In this document: positions 4,234-30,058 of the stretch, in pieces
Layout of the letters: every line of letters starts with the position of its first letter
Position numbering within the stretch: the stretch's first letter is position 1
Assembly (NCBI GenBank): GCA_021794275.1
Contig: JAJYRD010000071.1
Coordinates: forward strand, 1 to 64,000
Source: Pseudomonadota bacterium
Lineage (GTDB): Bacteria; Pseudomonadota; Gammaproteobacteria; Acidiferrobacterales; Acidiferrobacteraceae
Length of the DNA stretch: 64,000 bases
Direction: 5' to 3'
Translations under genes and position numbers: made by a program
The notes under the pieces: model-generated
What the model saw: the letters and a program-made list of their open reading frames with translations, nothing else
Told to the model about the DNA's origin: nothing
Database searches by the model: none

Positions 4234-6044
<1,811 letters not shown>

Positions 6045-6185
6045 AGGGACGCAGGGGGAAAGAGGCGCGCAGTATATAGGCAACACCAGAGGTGATGCTA
6101 TAAGGGCGACGCTCGGTTGGGTGTCGGACCGGCGCATTGTACTGGCCTCCCCGGTCCGGGGGAAGAGCGGGACGTGAAAACTCCG

Positions 6186-6437
6186 CTAGCGTCGCATAAA
6201 TAACGCGCCCACGACAGTCCCGAGGACCGCCCCCAAGATAAGGCCGGCCGCCATTTCATTGAACGAGCGTTCGGCAAGCGGAATCAGCAGGCGGTTCAGG
6301 CCGTGCAGGTTGGAGCCGCGCGTGAGCACGATCGACAGCGGCAGCTGCTCCCCGAAAACGTCAGACGGTCGCAGCAGAAAGCCCGTCAGGGCGCCGGCGG
6401 TCGCGAAGACCGCCACGAGGGGTGTCACAATCTTCAC
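6186..6437 (-). CDS. small two-TM membrane protein, unknown function
   Basis: I chose a GTG start at 6437 because a strong GGAGGA lies 6 nt upstream on this strand; the ATG of the listed ORF has no such site. The 83-residue product has a hydrophobic helix at about 4-22, a polar middle (LTRGSNLHGLNRLL) and a second glycine-rich helix at about 61-80, ending MRR. This suggests a two-pass inner-membrane protein with a glycine-packed second helix. It diverges from the tetR gene across about 100 nt, so the TetR protein might also control it. I do not recognise the family. Confidence 0.6.
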   Translation of the reverse strand: MKIVTPLVAVFATAGALTGFLLRPSDVFGEQLPLSIVLTRGSNLHGLNRLLIPLAERSFNEMAAGLILGAVLGTVVGALFMRR

Positions 6438-23362: not shown

Positions 23363-25165
23363 GTGAGCGAGCGGGACCCCATGGTCAGGCGAGCAGTTCT
23401 AATAGTAGTGATGCTTCTGTTGGGCGCGCTCGCGGCCGCATCGGCCCGCCCGTTGGCCCCCAATCAGGCCTTTCGTTTCCACGCGGCGGTCGCCGATGGC
23501 AAGCTTGTGGTGCGTTGGACCGCCGCACCTGGCTATCACCTCTACCGCAGTCGCATCCATCTGGCGGTCGGGCCGCGCAAGGTTCACCTCGCGCCTTTCG
23601 TGCTCCCCAAGGGGCGCTGGGTCAATGATGCGGCTTTCGGGCACCAACAAGTCTACGAAGGCCGAACCGGTCTTGCGATCCCGTTTGCCGCGCCCCGTGC
23701 CGTCTCCACGATCCAGGTGACGGCGCGCTACCAGGGCTGCGCCAATGCGGGCATCTGCTATCCGCCGCTCACGAAAACTGTCATCCTGAAGGCGCCGCCG
23801 AGCGGTTGGCCGCATGCGGGCGGGCTTGAGCGCGTCGCGTCTGTCACGCCGCCGCCGGCCAAGGGTGCCCCACCCTGGACGACTCTGGCCCTGTTTCTGG
23901 TGGCCGGGCTCGGCCTTGCCTTCACGCCCTGCGTCTTCCCGATGATCCCGATCCTGTCGGCTACCGTGGTCGGCCAATGCCGGGGGCGCGCCCGCCCGTT
24001 CACCCTGTCGCTCGCCTATGTGGCTGGCATGGCCGCGACCTATACGGGCGCTGGTATCGTCGCTGCTCTCACCGGACACTATGTGCAGGCTGCCTTCCAG
24101 AGTCCCTGGGTGCTGTCGGCCTTCAGCGCCCTGTTCGTGGTGCTCGCGCTCTGCATGTTCGGGCTATACGATCTCCAGATGCCGCCAGCGGTGCAGGAGC
24201 GTCTGGGCCGCTTCGGCCAGGGCGGCCAGGTCTTCGGCAGCCTGATCTTGGGGGCCTTTTCCGCGCTGATCGTGGGGCCCTGTGTTGCCGCGCCTCTGGC
24301 TGGCGCCCTGTTGCTCATTTCACGTACGGGCGATGTCCTGTTCGGGGGTCTTGCCCTATTCGCCCTGAGCGTCGGGATGGGCCTCCCGCTGCTTGCCGTC
24401 GGGACCTCGGCGGGCCATTTCCTTCCAAAGGCTGGTCCATGGCTCAATAAGATTCGGGCCATCTTCGGTGTTGTGATGATCGGGGTCGCGATCTGGCTCG
24501 AAAGCCGCATCTTGCCAGGCCCGGTGACCCTGGGCCTCTGGTCCTTGCTTGCCATCATCGCGACTGTGGCCCTGGGCGCGCTCGAGCCCTTGCCCCCCAC
24601 GATGCCGGGCTACGCGCGTGTCGCCAAGGGGCTTGGAGTAGCTGTGCTCGGCTATGGGCTGGTATTGGGCGCAGGCGCCCTGTCTGGGGGTCGAAACCCG
24701 TTAGCCCCCCTCGCGCGTCTCGCGGGCGACGGCGCGGTATCGTCTTTGGGCCCGAAGCTTGTGTTTCAGACCATCCACAGCCAAAGTGGCCTGCGCCGGG
24801 TGCTTGCCACCGCCCGTGGACGGCCGGTTCTAGTGGATTTTTGGGCGTCCTGGTGTGTACAGTGCCGGCGTATGGAGAGGAACACTTTCCGTAACGCCCG
24901 AGTGGCTGCGGCCTTGAGTTCGTTTGTCCTGGTGCGTGCTGACGTCACGCGTGCCGATGGGCGCACCCGGCGTCTGCTCGCCCTCCTGCACGCCTTCGGC
25001 CCCCCCACCCTGGTCCTTTTGAATGGCCGAGGGGCGCGTATCGGACTCTGGCCAGGCTACGCCGGCCCACACGCGCTTCTCGCTCATCTTGCGGATCGCG
25101 TCCCTGCGGGAGGGATGGCGCGCACACAGCCGGCGGATTTGCGCCATAGCGAGGTCACAAATTGA
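23363..25165 (+). CDS. dsbD: Thiol:disulfide interchange protein DsbD
   Basis: DsbD carries electrons from cytoplasmic thioredoxin across the inner membrane to periplasmic oxidoreductases. The 600-residue protein has a signal sequence and an N-terminal immunoglobulin-like alpha domain with its Cys pair (GCANAGICYPP). The eight-helix beta domain has Cys in FTPCVFP and VGPCVAAPL. A C-terminal thioredoxin-like gamma domain has WCVQC (Cys 498 and 501). The listed start is GTG. The ATG at 23381 (MVRRAVLIVV) gives an equally good signal peptide and may be the real start. The next gene, a DsbG-like protein, is a likely client. Confidence 0.94.
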   Translation: MSERDPMVRRAVLIVVMLLLGALAAASARPLAPNQAFRFHAAVADGKLVVRWTAAPGYHLYRSRIHLAVGPRKVHLAPFVLPKGRWVNDAAFGHQQVYEGRTGLAIPFAAPRAVSTIQVTARYQGCANAGICYPPLTKTVILKAPPSGWPHAGGLERVASVTPPPAKGAPPWTTLALFLVAGLGLAFTPCVFPMIPILSATVVGQCRGRARPFTLSLAYVAGMAATYTGAGIVAALTGHYVQAAFQSPWVLSAFSALFVVLALCMFGLYDLQMPPAVQERLGRFGQGGQVFGSLILGAFSALIVGPCVAAPLAGALLLISRTGDVLFGGLALFALSVGMGLPLLAVGTSAGHFLPKAGPWLNKIRAIFGVVMIGVAIWLESRILPGPVTLGLWSLLAIIATVALGALEPLPPTMPGYARVAKGLGVAVLGYGLVLGAGALSGGRNPLAPLARLAGDGAVSSLGPKLVFQTIHSQSGLRRVLATARGRPVLVDFWASWCVQCRRMERNTFRNARVAAALSSFVLVRADVTRADGRTRRLLALLHAFGPPTLVLLNGRGARIGLWPGYAGPHALLAHLADRVPAGGMARTQPADLRHSEVTN

Positions 25166-25812
25166 GTTCTGTCCGCACCCTTACTACCAGAGGCTCGCTC
25201 CCTGGGCGCCCACACCCCGCCTCGATCCGGACGGCCTCCGCGTCGCTACGGATTCCTGTAGCGCTGCTCCTTGGCCTCTTCTGTGCGGCCGCATGGGCCC
25301 ATGGCGCGTCGGTCGGCGTCAAGCAGGCCCGGCGGCTCGCGCTCTACAGGGCATTGGCGGGGGCGACCGCCATCACCGAGGGGCACGGGCCGCGCGTGGT
25401 CTATGACTTTTTCGACCCTAACTGCCCCTATTGCCATATCCTCTACGAACGGCTGCGGGGTTTGATCGGGCCCTATCATTTGACTGTCCGTGAGATCCCC
25501 GTCGGGTATCTCACGCCCTCCAGCGTAGGCAAGGCGGCGGCCCTCCTTGAGGCGACCCATAAGCGCGCCGCCCTGCAAGCCGCCCAGGCCCATTACTCCT
25601 GGAAGACCGGAAGCTCGATTGCGCCGCGACCGCCGTCCCCCCTCGTCCGGCAGCAGCTCGCCCGAAACCTGAAGCTCGATACGCAAGCCGCGGGCTTTCC
25701 GCTCGTACCGATTCTCGTCTATCAGAAAACCGACGGCACGATCCGCATCGTGAACTCGGGCGCACCTCCGGTTTGGGCTTTGAAGCAGATACTGGCCAGC
25801 ATCAAGGGTTAA
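25162..25812 (+). CDS. DsbG/DsbC-like periplasmic thiol oxidoreductase
   Basis: This 216-residue exported protein has a hydrophobic signal segment at about 31-47 (PVALLLGLFCAAAWAHG). The thioredoxin-fold active site is DPNCPYC, Cys 88 and 91, with a cis-Pro region FPLVPILVY. The DPNCPYC context is like DsbG. The N-terminal dimerisation domain of DsbC/DsbG is very short or missing, so it may be monomeric. The start is TTG inside the dsbD stop (TTGA) with GAGGT just upstream, implying coupled translation. DsbD would keep it reduced as a disulfide reductase or isomerase. The last 4 nt overlap gpsA (TTAA). Confidence 0.85.
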   Translation: MSSVRTLTTRGSLPGRPHPASIRTASASLRIPVALLLGLFCAAAWAHGASVGVKQARRLALYRALAGATAITEGHGPRVVYDFFDPNCPYCHILYERLRGLIGPYHLTVREIPVGYLTPSSVGKAAALLEATHKRAALQAAQAHYSWKTGSSIAPRPPSPLVRQQLARNLKLDTQAAGFPLVPILVYQKTDGTIRIVNSGAPPVWALKQILASIKG

Positions 25813-26846
25813 GCGGTGATGCCGCAGGTTTCAGTCTTGGGGTCACGACTCAAAAGGGCCGCCACCGCGGCTTCGGGGCTGCGCCCAGCGAACAGGACCT
25901 GATAGACCTGTTCGGTGATGGGCATATCGATGTCGTTTTCACGGGCCAGGGCGTAAACCTCGCGGGCGCTCGCCACCCCTTCCACGGCCTGTCCGAGCTC
26001 GCCTGTGATGTCGCCAAGCGAACGCCCGCGCGCGAGCGCGAGGCCCACGCGCCGATTGCGCGACAGGTCGTCTGTGCAGGTCAAGACCAGGTCCCCCACG
26101 CCCGACAAGCCCATGAGCGTCTCGGTCCGGCCCCCGACCGCGACGCCGAGACGCAGGAGTTCGGCGAGGCCCCTGGTGATGAGGGCGGCGCGGGCGTTGG
26201 CGCCAAAGCCGAGTCCGTCGCTGATTCCGGCGGCGATCGCCAACACGTTTTTCACCGCACCGCCGATCTCGGCGCCGATGACATCGTCGCTCGTGTAGAT
26301 ACGCAGGCGTTCCCCTCGAAGCCAGGATGCCACGGTCTCGGCCGTCGCGAGATTATCCGACGCCACCGTGAGTGCCGTCGGAAGCCCGGCGGCCACTTCG
26401 CGCGCGAAACTCGGCCCAGTCAATACGGTGGCCGCTTTTCCAGGCCGCACCTCGGCGTGGATCTCCGACAGCCGCTTATGGGTCCCCGACTCGAGGCCCT
26501 TAGTGGCCCACGCCAGCACGGTCCGGTCGTCGCAGAGTGGCGCTAAGGCCCGTAGGACGGTCCTAAAGGCGCCGCTTGGGACCGCCACCATTAGCCCGTC
26601 GCTGGCCTGGCAGACGCGCTTTAGGTCGCTTTCGATCTCCAGGCTGTCGGGAAAACGGACATGCGGAAGGGCCGAGGTATGGACGCGTTCGTGCGCTAGC
26701 CGTGCCATCCGCGCCTCATCCGAGCCCCACAGCAGAACCCGGCGCCCGGGCCGCGCGAGGAGGATGGCGAGCGCCGTACCCCACACCCCCGCGCCCAGAA
26801 CCCCGAGCGTGTCCGACGGCCCAGACTCAGTGGGCGTTCGACCCAT
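25809..26846 (-). CDS. gpsA: Glycerol-3-phosphate dehydrogenase [NAD(P)+]
   Basis: GpsA makes sn-glycerol-3-phosphate from DHAP for phospholipids. From MGRTPTESG the protein is 345 residues. The Rossmann motif VLGAGVWGTALA, VPSGAF, the WATKGLE segment and the catalytic Lys in IGGAVKNVLAIAAG are all present. The start overlaps the 3' end of secB by 20 nt, typical of the grxC-secB-gpsA operon. The first four residues of the listed ORF are optional. It converges on the DsbG-like gene with a 4-nt stop overlap. Confidence 0.96.
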   Translation of the reverse strand: MGRTPTESGPSDTLGVLGAGVWGTALAILLARPGRRVLLWGSDEARMARLAHERVHTSALPHVRFPDSLEIESDLKRVCQASDGLMVAVPSGAFRTVLRALAPLCDDRTVLAWATKGLESGTHKRLSEIHAEVRPGKAATVLTGPSFAREVAAGLPTALTVASDNLATAETVASWLRGERLRIYTSDDVIGAEIGGAVKNVLAIAAGISDGLGFGANARAALITRGLAELLRLGVAVGGRTETLMGLSGVGDLVLTCTDDLSRNRRVGLALARGRSLGDITGELGQAVEGVASAREVYALARENDIDMPITEQVYQVLFAGRSPEAAVAALLSRDPKTETCGITA

Positions 26847-27294
26847 CTTGTGCTTCACCGTCTTGCTTTTGTTGGTAGAGCATCTCGAAGTTGACGGGAT
26901 TGATGAGCAGCTGCGGGAAGCCGCCCTTGCTCACGAGATCGTTCACGACCTCGCGGGCAAACGGCAGCAGGATGTTGGGGCACGCAATTTCCAGGACCTT
27001 CACGAGTTCCTCGTCGGGGACGCCCGTGATGCGGAACACCCCGGCTTGCTTGGTTTCCGTAAGGAACGCGGTGCGCTTATCCATGCGCGCGGTCACGGTC
27101 ACGGCCAACACGACCTCATAGAGTCCTTCGGCGGGGTTTATGGGGCTATGTTCGATCCCAAGCTGCATGTCGACTTCCATCGCCGCTTTTTCGAGAAAAA
27201 TGGCTGGGACGTGCGGGGCCTCAAAGGAGATGTCCTTCACATAAATCTTTTCGAGGCTGAAGACGATTTCCGGGTCCGCGTTTTGATCCGCCAC
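26827..27294 (-). CDS. secB: Protein-export chaperone SecB
   Basis: SecB is a tetrameric cytoplasmic chaperone that holds presecretory proteins unfolded and delivers them to SecA. The 155-residue product has the family N-terminus FSLEKIYVKDISFEAP and the C-terminal FPQLLINPVNFEMLYQ. It lies in the conserved rhodanese-grxC-secB-gpsA order. A ribosome site GGAGC precedes the ATG. Confidence 0.97.
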   Translation of the reverse strand: MADQNADPEIVFSLEKIYVKDISFEAPHVPAIFLEKAAMEVDMQLGIEHSPINPAEGLYEVVLAVTVTARMDKRTAFLTETKQAGVFRITGVPDEELVKVLEIACPNILLPFAREVVNDLVSKGGFPQLLINPVNFEMLYQQKQDGEAQDGSNAH

Positions 27295-27339: not shown

Positions 27340-27597
27340 TCAGAGGCCCAGCAGGGGATCAAGCTCCCCCCTTAGGTCGAGTTGCGCAAGTTCCCGGTAG
27401 CCGCCTATGTGACGGTCACCAATGAATATCTGGGGGACCGTATTCACGCCATGCGCCCGATCGACCATTTCCTGCCGCCGCGTGGGTTCTTCGTCCACAC
27501 GAATCTTTTCGACCGCGACACCCTTTTTTTCGAAAAGGCGCGATGCCATCTGACAGTAGGGACACACGCGCGTAGTGTACATCAAGACCTTTGCCAT
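27340..27597 (-). CDS. grxC: Glutaredoxin 3 (GrxC)
   Basis: This is a glutathione-dependent dithiol reductase. From the ATG at 27597 it has 85 residues, with active site CPYC at Cys 12 and 15, the TVPQIFIG cis-Pro loop and GGYREL. The 26 extra residues of the listed ORF overlap the rhodanese gene. In E. coli the same order (yibN-grxC-secB-gpsA) is found. It supplies reducing equivalents for disulfide repair; in this setting it might also act on persulfides made by the rhodanese, which is inference. Confidence 0.95.
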   Translation of the reverse strand: MAKVLMYTTRVCPYCQMASRLFEKKGVAVEKIRVDEEPTRRQEMVDRAHGVNTVPQIFIGDRHIGGYRELAQLDLRGELDPLLGL

Positions 27598-27604
27598 AAG
27601 GACC

Positions 27605-28018
27605 CTACGATACTGTGGGGAGATTCGCGCTGCGCCATGCGGACAGGCCGCCGGCAAGGTTGCGCACGTCGGCAAATCCCTCTTTCCGCAGTATCGCCGC
27701 AGCCCGCGCTGACCGCGCGCCGCTTGCGCAACACACGATGATGGGCTTCTCCTTATATTTTTTCAGCTCCTGGCTGCGTGTCGCCACCTGCCCCAAAGGG
27801 ATGTTGATGGCTCGCGCGATGTGTCCGCTGGTAAATTCTTGAGGTTCGCGAACGTCCACGACCACGGCAGCTTTGCGGTTAAGGATCTGGACGGCCTCCT
27901 GCCCCGTCACCTTTTGGCCGCCCGAAGTCGCGTCGAGGGCGGTGCCCGCCACCAACAGGCCGCCCACGATAACCAACGCCAGAAAGAGGTACCAGTGTGC
28001 AATCACGAACGCAGCCAT
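27605..28018 (-). CDS. membrane-anchored rhodanese-domain protein (YibN-like)
   Basis: The 137-residue protein has an N-terminal transmembrane helix (about 5-27) and a single rhodanese domain from about residue 38. The active-site loop is CASGARS, with catalytic Cys 97 directly preceded by Cys 96. Other markers are VVVDVREPQEF and GHIARAINIP. Rhodaneses carry persulfide sulfur. It corresponds to E. coli YibN by gene position. Immediately upstream lies a two-cysteine ArsR repressor, which makes a role in reactive-sulfur handling more likely here than the position alone would suggest. Confidence 0.9.
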   Translation of the reverse strand: MAAFVIAHWYLFLALVIVGGLLVAGTALDATSGGQKVTGQEAVQILNRKAAVVVDVREPQEFTSGHIARAINIPLGQVATRSQELKKYKEKPIIVCCASGARSARAAAILRKEGFADVRNLAGGLSAWRSANLPTVS

Positions 28019-28027
28019 GACGGTCCC

Positions 28028-28372
28028 TCAGCGCGGATCGGGCAAGGTGCAGAAGGCCATGCGCATGGCCCCTATCAGTTGCAGGATGCGGGGGTCTGCG
28101 ATGCGGTAAAAGACCTTGTTTGCGTGTTTGCGCGACGCAAGGATGTCCTTGTCGCGTAAAATGGACAGGTGTTGGGAGATATTGCTCTGCGAAGTGCCCA
28201 CCTGGACTACGATATCTTGTACACTCACCTCCGTGGCGGCGCCCAGAATGCAGAGGATCTTCAATCGCAACGGATGCGCAATGGCCTTCAGCGCCCTTGA
28301 CGCGAGCTGGATGTCATCCTCGTTGGTGATAAGAATGTCCTCCAGCGGCTGGATGATCTCGGAAGGTACCAT
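28028..28372 (-). CDS. ArsR/SmtB-family repressor, candidate persulfide sensor
   Basis: From the ATG at 28372, with GGGAG 5 nt upstream, the protein is 114 residues. It is a winged-helix repressor with recognition region VGTSQSNISQHLSILR. It lacks the ELCVCDL metal site of ArsR/SmtB. It has just two cysteines, at 41 (ILCIL) and 108 (AFCTL). This spacing matches BigR/SqrR-type sensors, in which two Cys form a di- or tetrasulfide bridge in response to sulfane sulfur. It precedes the rhodanese gene by 9 nt and so probably controls rhodanese-grxC-secB-gpsA. The sensing role is inferred from Cys placement and context. Confidence 0.85.
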   Translation of the reverse strand: MVPSEIIQPLEDILITNEDDIQLASRALKAIAHPLRLKILCILGAATEVSVQDIVVQVGTSQSNISQHLSILRDKDILASRKHANKVFYRIADPRILQLIGAMRMAFCTLPDPR

Positions 28373-28449
28373 ATCGACTCCCTTAGGTCGTAAGGACGAG
28401 TTACGGCCCGGTAAGCCATTACCGGCCGGCTGTCGCCCGAAACAAAACA

Positions 28450-28463
28450 TTATACAATATAAG
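28450..28463. promoter_or_regulatory. AT-rich palindrome in arsR-gpmI divergent promoter region
   Basis: TTATA-CAA-TATAA (28451-28463) is an inverted repeat in otherwise GC-rich DNA. On the minus strand it contains TATAAT, a consensus -10 for the arsR operon (complement of 28450-28455). On the plus strand TACAAT or TATAAG could serve gpmI. An AT-rich dyad over the -10 is the kind of site bound by BigR/SqrR-like repressors. It is the only obvious candidate operator here. Confidence 0.55.
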
Positions 28464-28510: not shown

Positions 28511-30058
28511 ATGCCTTTTACACCGAAACCTCTTGTGCTTGTTATCCTCGACGGCTGGGGCCACAGCGATCGGACCGAAAACAACGCCATCGCAGCGGCC
28601 CGCAAACCGTGGTGGGACAAAACGTGGGCGTCTTCCAGCCACAGCCTCATCCAGGCCTCCGAGGCCGCCGTCGGTCTTCCATCGAAGCAGATGGGGAATT
28701 CCGAGGTCGGTCACCTGAATCTCGGGGCCGGCCGGGTCGTTTATCAGGAGTACACGCGGATCAACCGCGCGATCGCCTCAGGGGCCTTTTTTACGAATAA
28801 GACACTGACCGACGCCGTCGATCTGGCTCGCGACAGTCACAAGAGCTTGCATGTGCTCGGGCTGCTATCGCCAGGGGGGGTCCATAGCCACGAAGATCAT
28901 ATCCATGCCATGGTCGAGCTGGCGGTGACTCGTGGTCTGAATCAGGTCTATCTGCACGCCTTTCTCGACGGGCGCGACACGTTACCACAGAGCGCCGGCG
29001 CCTCGCTTACGGCCATGGAGGCCAAATTCGCGGCCCTCGGACGCGGGCGCATCGCCTCCGTCATCGGGCGCTACTATGCGATGGATCGCGACCACAGATG
29101 GCCGCGCATTCAGGCCGCCTACGATCTGCTGACCGCGGCCAAGGCTGACTATCGGGCAGCCACCGCCGCCGAGGCCCTCGCCCAGGCCTACGCGCGAGGG
29201 GAGACGGACGAGTTCGTCAAGGGGACGATCGTGGTCCCGCCGGGCGAGGCCCCGCGCCCGATAGACGACGGTGATGTGGTGGTGTTCATGAACTTTCGTT
29301 CGGATCGCGCGCGCCAGATCAGCCGGCCGTTCGTCGATCCGGCGTTCGACGGCTTTATTCCCACGGCGCGGCCGCGCCTCGGGCGCTTCGTGAGCCTCAC
29401 GGAATACCAGGCCGACTTCAACGTCCCCGTGGCCTTTCCGGCGGCGCGCCTTGTCAACGTCCTCGGGGCTTATCTGGCTGATCTGGGGAAGCGTCAGCTG
29501 CGTGTCGCCGAAACCGAAAAGTACGCGCATGTCACGTTTTTCTTCAACGGCGGGGAGGAGACGCCGTTTGAGGGCGAAGAGCGCGTCCTCGTGCCCTCGC
29601 CGACCGATGTGCCCACTTACAATCGCAAGCCTGAAATGAGCGCCAGCAAGGTTGCCGACGAGGTGATCCGGGCGGTCGCGGCCGGACGCCATGATGTCAT
29701 CATCTGCAACTTCGCCAATCCCGACATGGTCGGGCATACCGGCGATTTTGCGGCGACGGTGTGTGCGATAGAGGCGCTCGACAAATGCCTGGCGCGCGTG
29801 GCTGAGGCCGTGCGGGCGAAAGGTGGAGAGATGTTGATAACCGCGGACCACGGCAATGCCGAGCAGATGCTCGACGCCGAGAGCGGACAGGCCCATACCG
29901 CGCACACTACGAACCCCGTGCCGCTCCTTTATGTGGGGCGCGACGCGCGGATCAATCCGCAGGGCTCCTTGGAAGACGTGGCGCCGACCATGCTGCGCCT
30001 CCTCAACATCACGCCGCCGTCCGAGATGACCGGGCAAGCCCTGATCGAGCTGGCGTGA
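28511..30058 (+). CDS. gpmI: 2,3-bisphosphoglycerate-independent phosphoglycerate mutase
   Basis: GpmI interconverts 3- and 2-phosphoglycerate using two Mn2+. From the ATG at 28511, with GGAG upstream, the product is 515 residues, the family norm. VILDGWG near the N-terminus, the phosphoserine loop MGNSEVGHLNLGAGR, GRDTLPQSA and the metal site TADHGNAEQM are all present. The gpmI-envC-ctpA order facing the secB cluster is the same as in E. coli. If the palindrome upstream binds the ArsR protein, this glycolytic/gluconeogenic step could share its regulation. Confidence 0.97.
   Translation: MPFTPKPLVLVILDGWGHSDRTENNAIAAARKPWWDKTWASSSHSLIQASEAAVGLPSKQMGNSEVGHLNLGAGRVVYQEYTRINRAIASGAFFTNKTLTDAVDLARDSHKSLHVLGLLSPGGVHSHEDHIHAMVELAVTRGLNQVYLHAFLDGRDTLPQSAGASLTAMEAKFAALGRGRIASVIGRYYAMDRDHRWPRIQAAYDLLTAAKADYRAATAAEALAQAYARGETDEFVKGTIVVPPGEAPRPIDDGDVVVFMNFRSDRARQISRPFVDPAFDGFIPTARPRLGRFVSLTEYQADFNVPVAFPAARLVNVLGAYLADLGKRQLRVAETEKYAHVTFFFNGGEETPFEGEERVLVPSPTDVPTYNRKPEMSASKVADEVIRAVAAGRHDVIICNFANPDMVGHTGDFAATVCAIEALDKCLARVAEAVRAKGGEMLITADHGNAEQMLDAESGQAHTAHTTNPVPLLYVGRDARINPQGSLEDVAPTMLRLLNITPPSEMTGQALIELA

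Follow-up and report, generated by a model that had tools for sequence, protein, structure and literature searches.

A two-cysteine ArsR protein as candidate sulfane-sulfur-responsive repressor of a conserved yibN-grxC-secB-gpsA operon in Gammaproteobacteria

The analysed stretch of 64,000 nucleotides (hereafter the window) carries an ArsR-family gene that lies in an operon with a rhodanese gene and diverges from gpmI, which raises the question of what signal such a regulator would sense and which of the neighbouring genes it would control. The genes concerned are the following.

28028 to 28372, minus strand: arsR, ArsR-family repressor of 114 aa with an ATG start, Cys41 and Cys108
27605 to 28018, minus strand: single-domain rhodanese with a membrane anchor, at the YibN position, 137 aa, catalytic Cys97 of VCCASGARS
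27340 to 27597, minus strand: grxC, glutaredoxin (Pfam Glutaredoxin)
26827 to 27294, minus strand: secB, export chaperone (Pfam SecB, 165 bits)
25809 to 26858, minus strand: gpsA, glycerol-3-phosphate dehydrogenase, its ORF overlapping the end of secB
28511 to 30058, plus strand: gpmI, phosphoglycerate mutase, divergent from arsR, with its ATG at 28511

The arsR start codon at 28372 is preceded by a GGGAG ribosome site, and the order arsR-rhodanese-grxC-secB-gpsA is compact, with gaps of 9 nt, 7 nt and 45 nt followed by the overlap. The ORF coordinates thus agree with the first-pass annotation, which had placed the rhodanese 9 nt past arsR. The rhodanese has an N-terminal membrane segment. It had also been credited with a CC active site, of which the second cysteine (Cys97) stands, as this position is the canonical catalytic one and holds a cysteine in 124/124 sequences, whereas the residue before it is a cysteine in only 20/124, so that the CC pair was rejected as a special feature. 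YibN, a rhodanese of the envelope, interacts with YidC, and the Escherichia coli yibN-grxC-secB-gpsA operon consists of the same genes; as described there it is without arsR, whereas arsR is the first gene of the window operon (PMC12282094). Downstream, at 23363-25812 on the plus strand, two genes converge on gpsA: the first encodes a DsbD-like membrane protein whose C-terminal thioredoxin domain has WCVQC, and the next a thioredoxin-fold protein that has NCPYC.

The translation of 28028-28372 bore out the description of the protein as a two-cysteine ArsR lacking a metal motif. Cysteines occur at positions 41 and 108 only; no CxC metal motif is present in the sequence, the equivalent stretch reading EVSVQDI, and the last helix contains no His, so that the ligands expected of an ArsR/SmtB metal sensor (helix-3 CxC or a helix-5 His/Asp pair) are missing. 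In the AlphaFold2 model (pLDDT 88.5), Cys41 lies within helix 34-44 and Cys108 directly past helix 94-107, the last helix. Both cysteines were invariant in 128/128 aligned ArsR proteins and were kept in 40/40 further loci fetched across families. Past residue 93, in the variable C-terminal stretch, only L99, F107 and C108 were more than 95% conserved among the 128 proteins. Two Thiotrichaceae orthologs (L111, L119) carry two extra cysteines, at positions 11 and 59.

The PDB sequences nearest to the window ArsR were BigR, SqrR, YgaV, NolR and HlyU, and both of its cysteines align in BigR, SqrR, YgaV and HlyU. With a 66-sequence profile these five proteins scored 69-79 bits and were separated by a gap from metal sensors and other ArsR proteins, which reached at most 55 bits. 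They were also found within the first eleven Foldseek matches to the AlphaFold2 model, with NolR and HlyU leading. All known RSS sensors fall into one cluster of a similarity-network study, with cysteines in helices 2 and 5, and rhodaneses are named as neighbours of this cluster (PMC10509353). The window ArsR resembles this RSS-sensing group (SSN cluster 4) in its helix 2/helix 5 cysteine pair without metal-site ligands and in its rhodanese/sulfurtransferase neighbourhood. Identity with BigR itself was ruled out, as the NCBIfam equivalog model NF040642 gave 66.4 bits against a curated cut-off of 155, and the operon is rhodanese-grxC-secB-gpsA instead of the DUF442-ETHE1 dioxygenase operon of the BigR type. 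A small tree contained a branch with 99% support between six characterised sensors on one side and the window ArsR with its relatives on the other, a placement that is weak owing to long branches.

The arrangement is widespread. Of 60 relatives, 51 gave a match with E <= 1e-12; with few exceptions these are close orthologs, and nearly all keep the gene order of the window. A scan of GTDB species genomes yielded at least 580 relatives. The best 80 of these include Acidiferrobacterales, Thiohalobacter, Thiodiazotropha and the Solemya velum symbiont as well as Rhabdochromatium, Beggiatoa-like and Gallionella genomes. A rhodanese lies downstream in 76 of these 80 best named relatives, mostly directly after arsR (in two Gallionella loci it is about 2 kb away), and the linkage is kept in 38/40 family-spread loci; these relatives were collected by similarity, which favours intact copies. 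An ortholog was detected in 170 of 370 sampled gammaproteobacterial genomes (E <= 1e-30), and the operon order is kept nearly always among orthologous loci. SoxB is a marker of thiosulfate oxidation. Its gene was present in 131/170 arsR carriers, leaving 39 without it, versus 30/200 non-carriers, corresponding to an odds ratio of 19 on raw counts that ignore shared ancestry; the window genome has soxB. Taken together, sequence, predicted fold, invariant cysteines, synteny and soxB co-occurrence support the earlier assignment to a BigR/SqrR-like sensor type, and the window ArsR is best described as a probable dithiol repressor of the persulfide-sensing type that forms a clade of its own.

Several characterised systems share part of this design. 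One is YgaV-YgaP of E. coli, in which a two-Cys ArsR that represses its own gene is cotranscribed with a rhodanese and derepressed by sulfide (PMC9774250). YgaV matches the window ArsR in fold and cysteine positions, but its operon has no grxC-secB-gpsA and it belongs to a separate clade, whereas the rhodanese partner of the window ArsR is that of the YibN locus. BigR of Xylella/Acinetobacter was the best PDB sequence match (58 bits), its Cys42 and Cys108 aligning with the cysteines of the window protein, and it recognises the -10 region of its own operon (PMC5823870), similar to the position of the window element over the arsR -10 box described below; unlike the window ArsR it controls a sulfur dioxygenase/transferase operon. 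In SqrR of Rhodobacter capsulatus and SoxR/sHdrR of Hyphomicrobium, both from sulfur oxidisers, the paired cysteines form a sulfur bridge (PMC12423496), but their targets are sulfur-oxidation genes, unlike the window operon, and the SqrR clade is separate. HlyU of Vibrio, the best PDB profile match (79 bits), has persulfide-specific chemistry (PMC10509353), but it is a transcriptional activator of hemolysin and shares no operon with the window ArsR.

The intergenic region between arsR and gpmI contains the following elements.

28450 to 28462, no strand assigned: palindrome TTATA-CAA-TATAA, read from the sequence
28445 to 28458, minus strand: conserved promoter/operator core ATTGTATAATGTTT, recurring upstream of arsR, predicted operator
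28437 to 28462, minus strand: stretch that corresponds in the alignment to the 26-bp 12-2-12 operator seen across the class, its far arm (28437-28441) degenerate in the window genus
28449 to 28454, minus strand: predicted arsR -10 box TATAAT, conserved
28453 to 28458, plus strand: predicted gpmI -10 box TACAAT, overlapping the arsR -10 box by 2 bp
28430 to 28435, plus strand: predicted gpmI -35 box CTGTCG, 17 nt from TACAAT, a weak match to TTGACA

The AT-rich palindrome had been noted in the divergent promoter as a site of the kind that BigR and SqrR bind. It is indeed present at 28450-28462, where TTATACAATATAA is the sole match to TTATANNNTATAA in the window at <=1 mismatch (0.04 expected in shuffles), but it is not the conserved dyad. 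The exact palindrome was found in 15/195 related upstream regions, which with a single exception come from the window genus or from MAGs close to it; in the sister genus it is broken. The 5-3-5 palindrome was therefore rejected as a general operator; TTATA-TTG-TATAA, to which the palindrome first noted corresponds, is a lineage-specific form in the window genus, where the right arm is lost. The conserved element is instead ATTGTATAATGTTT, which recurs upstream of arsR across the order and well beyond.

An expectation-maximisation motif search in 160 non-redundant upstream regions, with symmetry imposed in the fit, returned a 26-bp palindrome, TATTAtTgtAta-AT-taTacAaTAATA, of 12-2-12 geometry. 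With symmetry not imposed, the 37 loci in which gpmI was not found divergent showed arms TATTA (0.76-0.95) and TAATA (0.59-1.00) spaced 16 nt apart, and self-complementarity was best at the TATTA-N16-TAATA centre, whereas in the 93 gpmI-adjacent loci, a set that differs from the former in taxonomy, the core was stronger, the arms were weaker and a GGCAG block lay downstream. The inverted repeat is thus clear class-wide and degenerate on one side in the window genus, where erosion of the far arm leaves no clean dyad at the window site. Upstream of arsR in two loci in which no adjacent gpmI was found (L050, L088), a near-perfect long inverted repeat, TATATTATTGTATAATTGTATAATAATATA, was observed.

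The element is tied to arsR. In the window genome a 15-nt version had one exact site, the second-best having 2 mismatches, and in 184 genomes 23 sites matched an 18-nt version with <=1 mismatch, 19 of which lie just upstream of arsR by coordinates; a genome-wide regulon of this site was rejected on these counts. Thirty rhodanese loci were taken from genomes without a close arsR, of which two keep a diverged arsR and 28 have none, and in these 28 the best matches to the element had 4-10 mismatches. Element match also differed between gpmI-adjacent loci with and without arsR (Mann-Whitney p 1e-4). Since the sites are found mostly at arsR and the element is missing from arsR-less loci, it behaves like a local site belonging to the regulator and not like a general yibN/gpmI promoter. 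This arsR-specific promoter element supports, at the level of sequence, the proposed local control of rhodanese-grxC-secB-gpsA.

Control of gpmI had been suggested with some reserve, and it is plausible. Core positions T5 and G7 were 0.95/0.94 conserved where gpmI is adjacent versus 0.65/0.68 where it is not, and the GGCAG block was conserved only in gpmI-adjacent loci. The core may therefore comprise two overlapping -10 boxes (TATAAT for arsR, TACAAT for gpmI) and GGCAG may be the gpmI -35 box, although the -35 matches are weak. In addition, arsR is divergent to gpmI without a rhodanese nearby at L034, L080, L115, L169 and L196, and in one genome (G024) the locus is split into gpmI-arsR (L034) and arsR-rhodanese-grxC-secB-gpsA (L048), with an arsR copy in each. 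The pairs without rhodanese and the split locus favour control of gpmI without proving it. In this genome the core element is kept at L034 and is weaker at L048.

We consider it fairly probable that the dithiol ArsR is a local autorepressor which is released by sulfane sulfur via a Cys41-Cys108 bridge and which controls its own operon and possibly gpmI; DNA binding, repression, control of gpmI and the nature of the signal are what we infer. Reduced ArsR would bind at about 28437-28462, over the arsR -10 box and probably that of gpmI, and would repress arsR-yibN-grxC-secB-gpsA and perhaps gpmI as well. With sulfane sulfur (polysulfide, glutathione persulfide) a polysulfide bridge would form between Cys41, a helix-2 residue, and Cys108, where helix 5 ends, upon which wing and recognition helix would shift, the DNA would be released and the operon transcribed. 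The role of rhodanese and glutaredoxin may then be to deal with this sulfur, and that of SecB and GpsA to tune export and phospholipid supply.

Other explanations were weighed against this. The same local repressor might be a general thiol-redox switch (peroxide, disulfide) or respond to electrophiles, since peroxide or a general oxidation of thiols can also be the signal for dithiol ArsR proteins; grxC and SecB would suit envelope redox stress, the DsbD-like and thioredoxin-fold genes adjoin the operon, and the arsR carriers without soxB fit as well. However, the cysteine pair is placed as in RSS sensors (helix 2/helix 5), the peroxide sensor RexT belongs to another cluster and uses two proximal helix-3 cysteines, and HlyU of the RSS-sensor cluster did not react in vitro with H2O2 or GSSG (PMC10509353), which makes such a switch unlikely. 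That the window ArsR senses a metal or metalloid in the manner of ArsR/SmtB proteins is very improbable. A generic metalloregulator subfamily is its best NCBIfam label above cut-off (84 bits), but, apart from the missing ligands and the position of both cysteines, no metal transporter is present in the arsR-rhodanese-grxC-secB-gpsA operon, and the contrast with another ArsR of the same genome, a probable metalloregulator with the helix-3 metal motif ELCVCDL (L004, contig C14, about 116511-116750), counts against a metal reading.

A different objection concerns the DNA. ATTGTATAATGTTT might represent only overlapping divergent -10 boxes, with ArsR acting elsewhere or binding weakly and the co-location reflecting inherited synteny. 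Conservation in gpmI-adjacent loci, including the window genus, does track the two -10 boxes more than the dyad, and the right arm is lost in the window genus. Against this, gpmI/yibN loci without arsR lack the element and the site becomes a symmetric 26-bp repeat where gpmI is not adjacent, and we regard this explanation as quite unlikely.

Known targets of sulfane-sulfur-sensing ArsR proteins are mainly genes of sulfur oxidation, detoxification, transport and virulence. No earlier report that links an ArsR persulfide sensor to secB, gpsA or yibN was found in the open-access literature, and judged from this literature a regulator of the window type seems to be undescribed. The sensor chemistry is already known; what seems not to have been described is the conserved pairing of the sensor with an export/lipid operon. 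A wider reading, which we hold only tentatively and at somewhat less than an even chance, is that an ancient sulfane-sulfur switch in about half of gammaproteobacterial species directly controls YibN (the YidC partner), SecB, GpsA and, through a single operator common to two divergent promoters that overlap, the glycolytic enzyme GpmI. If true, so deeply conserved a connection of sulfane sulfur with protein export and phospholipid precursors would make it easier to understand why yibN, grxC, secB and gpsA are kept in a single operon. The cluster could be tested through a single repressor, a short DNA site and a pair of cysteines.

The window genome encodes a further ArsR (L003, contig C79, about 5966-6205) that forms a fusion with a rhodanese domain within a single ORF, in which FEQLARVAKAVAQSNRLELLEAL... 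is followed by VIDVRPESEYQAGHV...CRGPYC.
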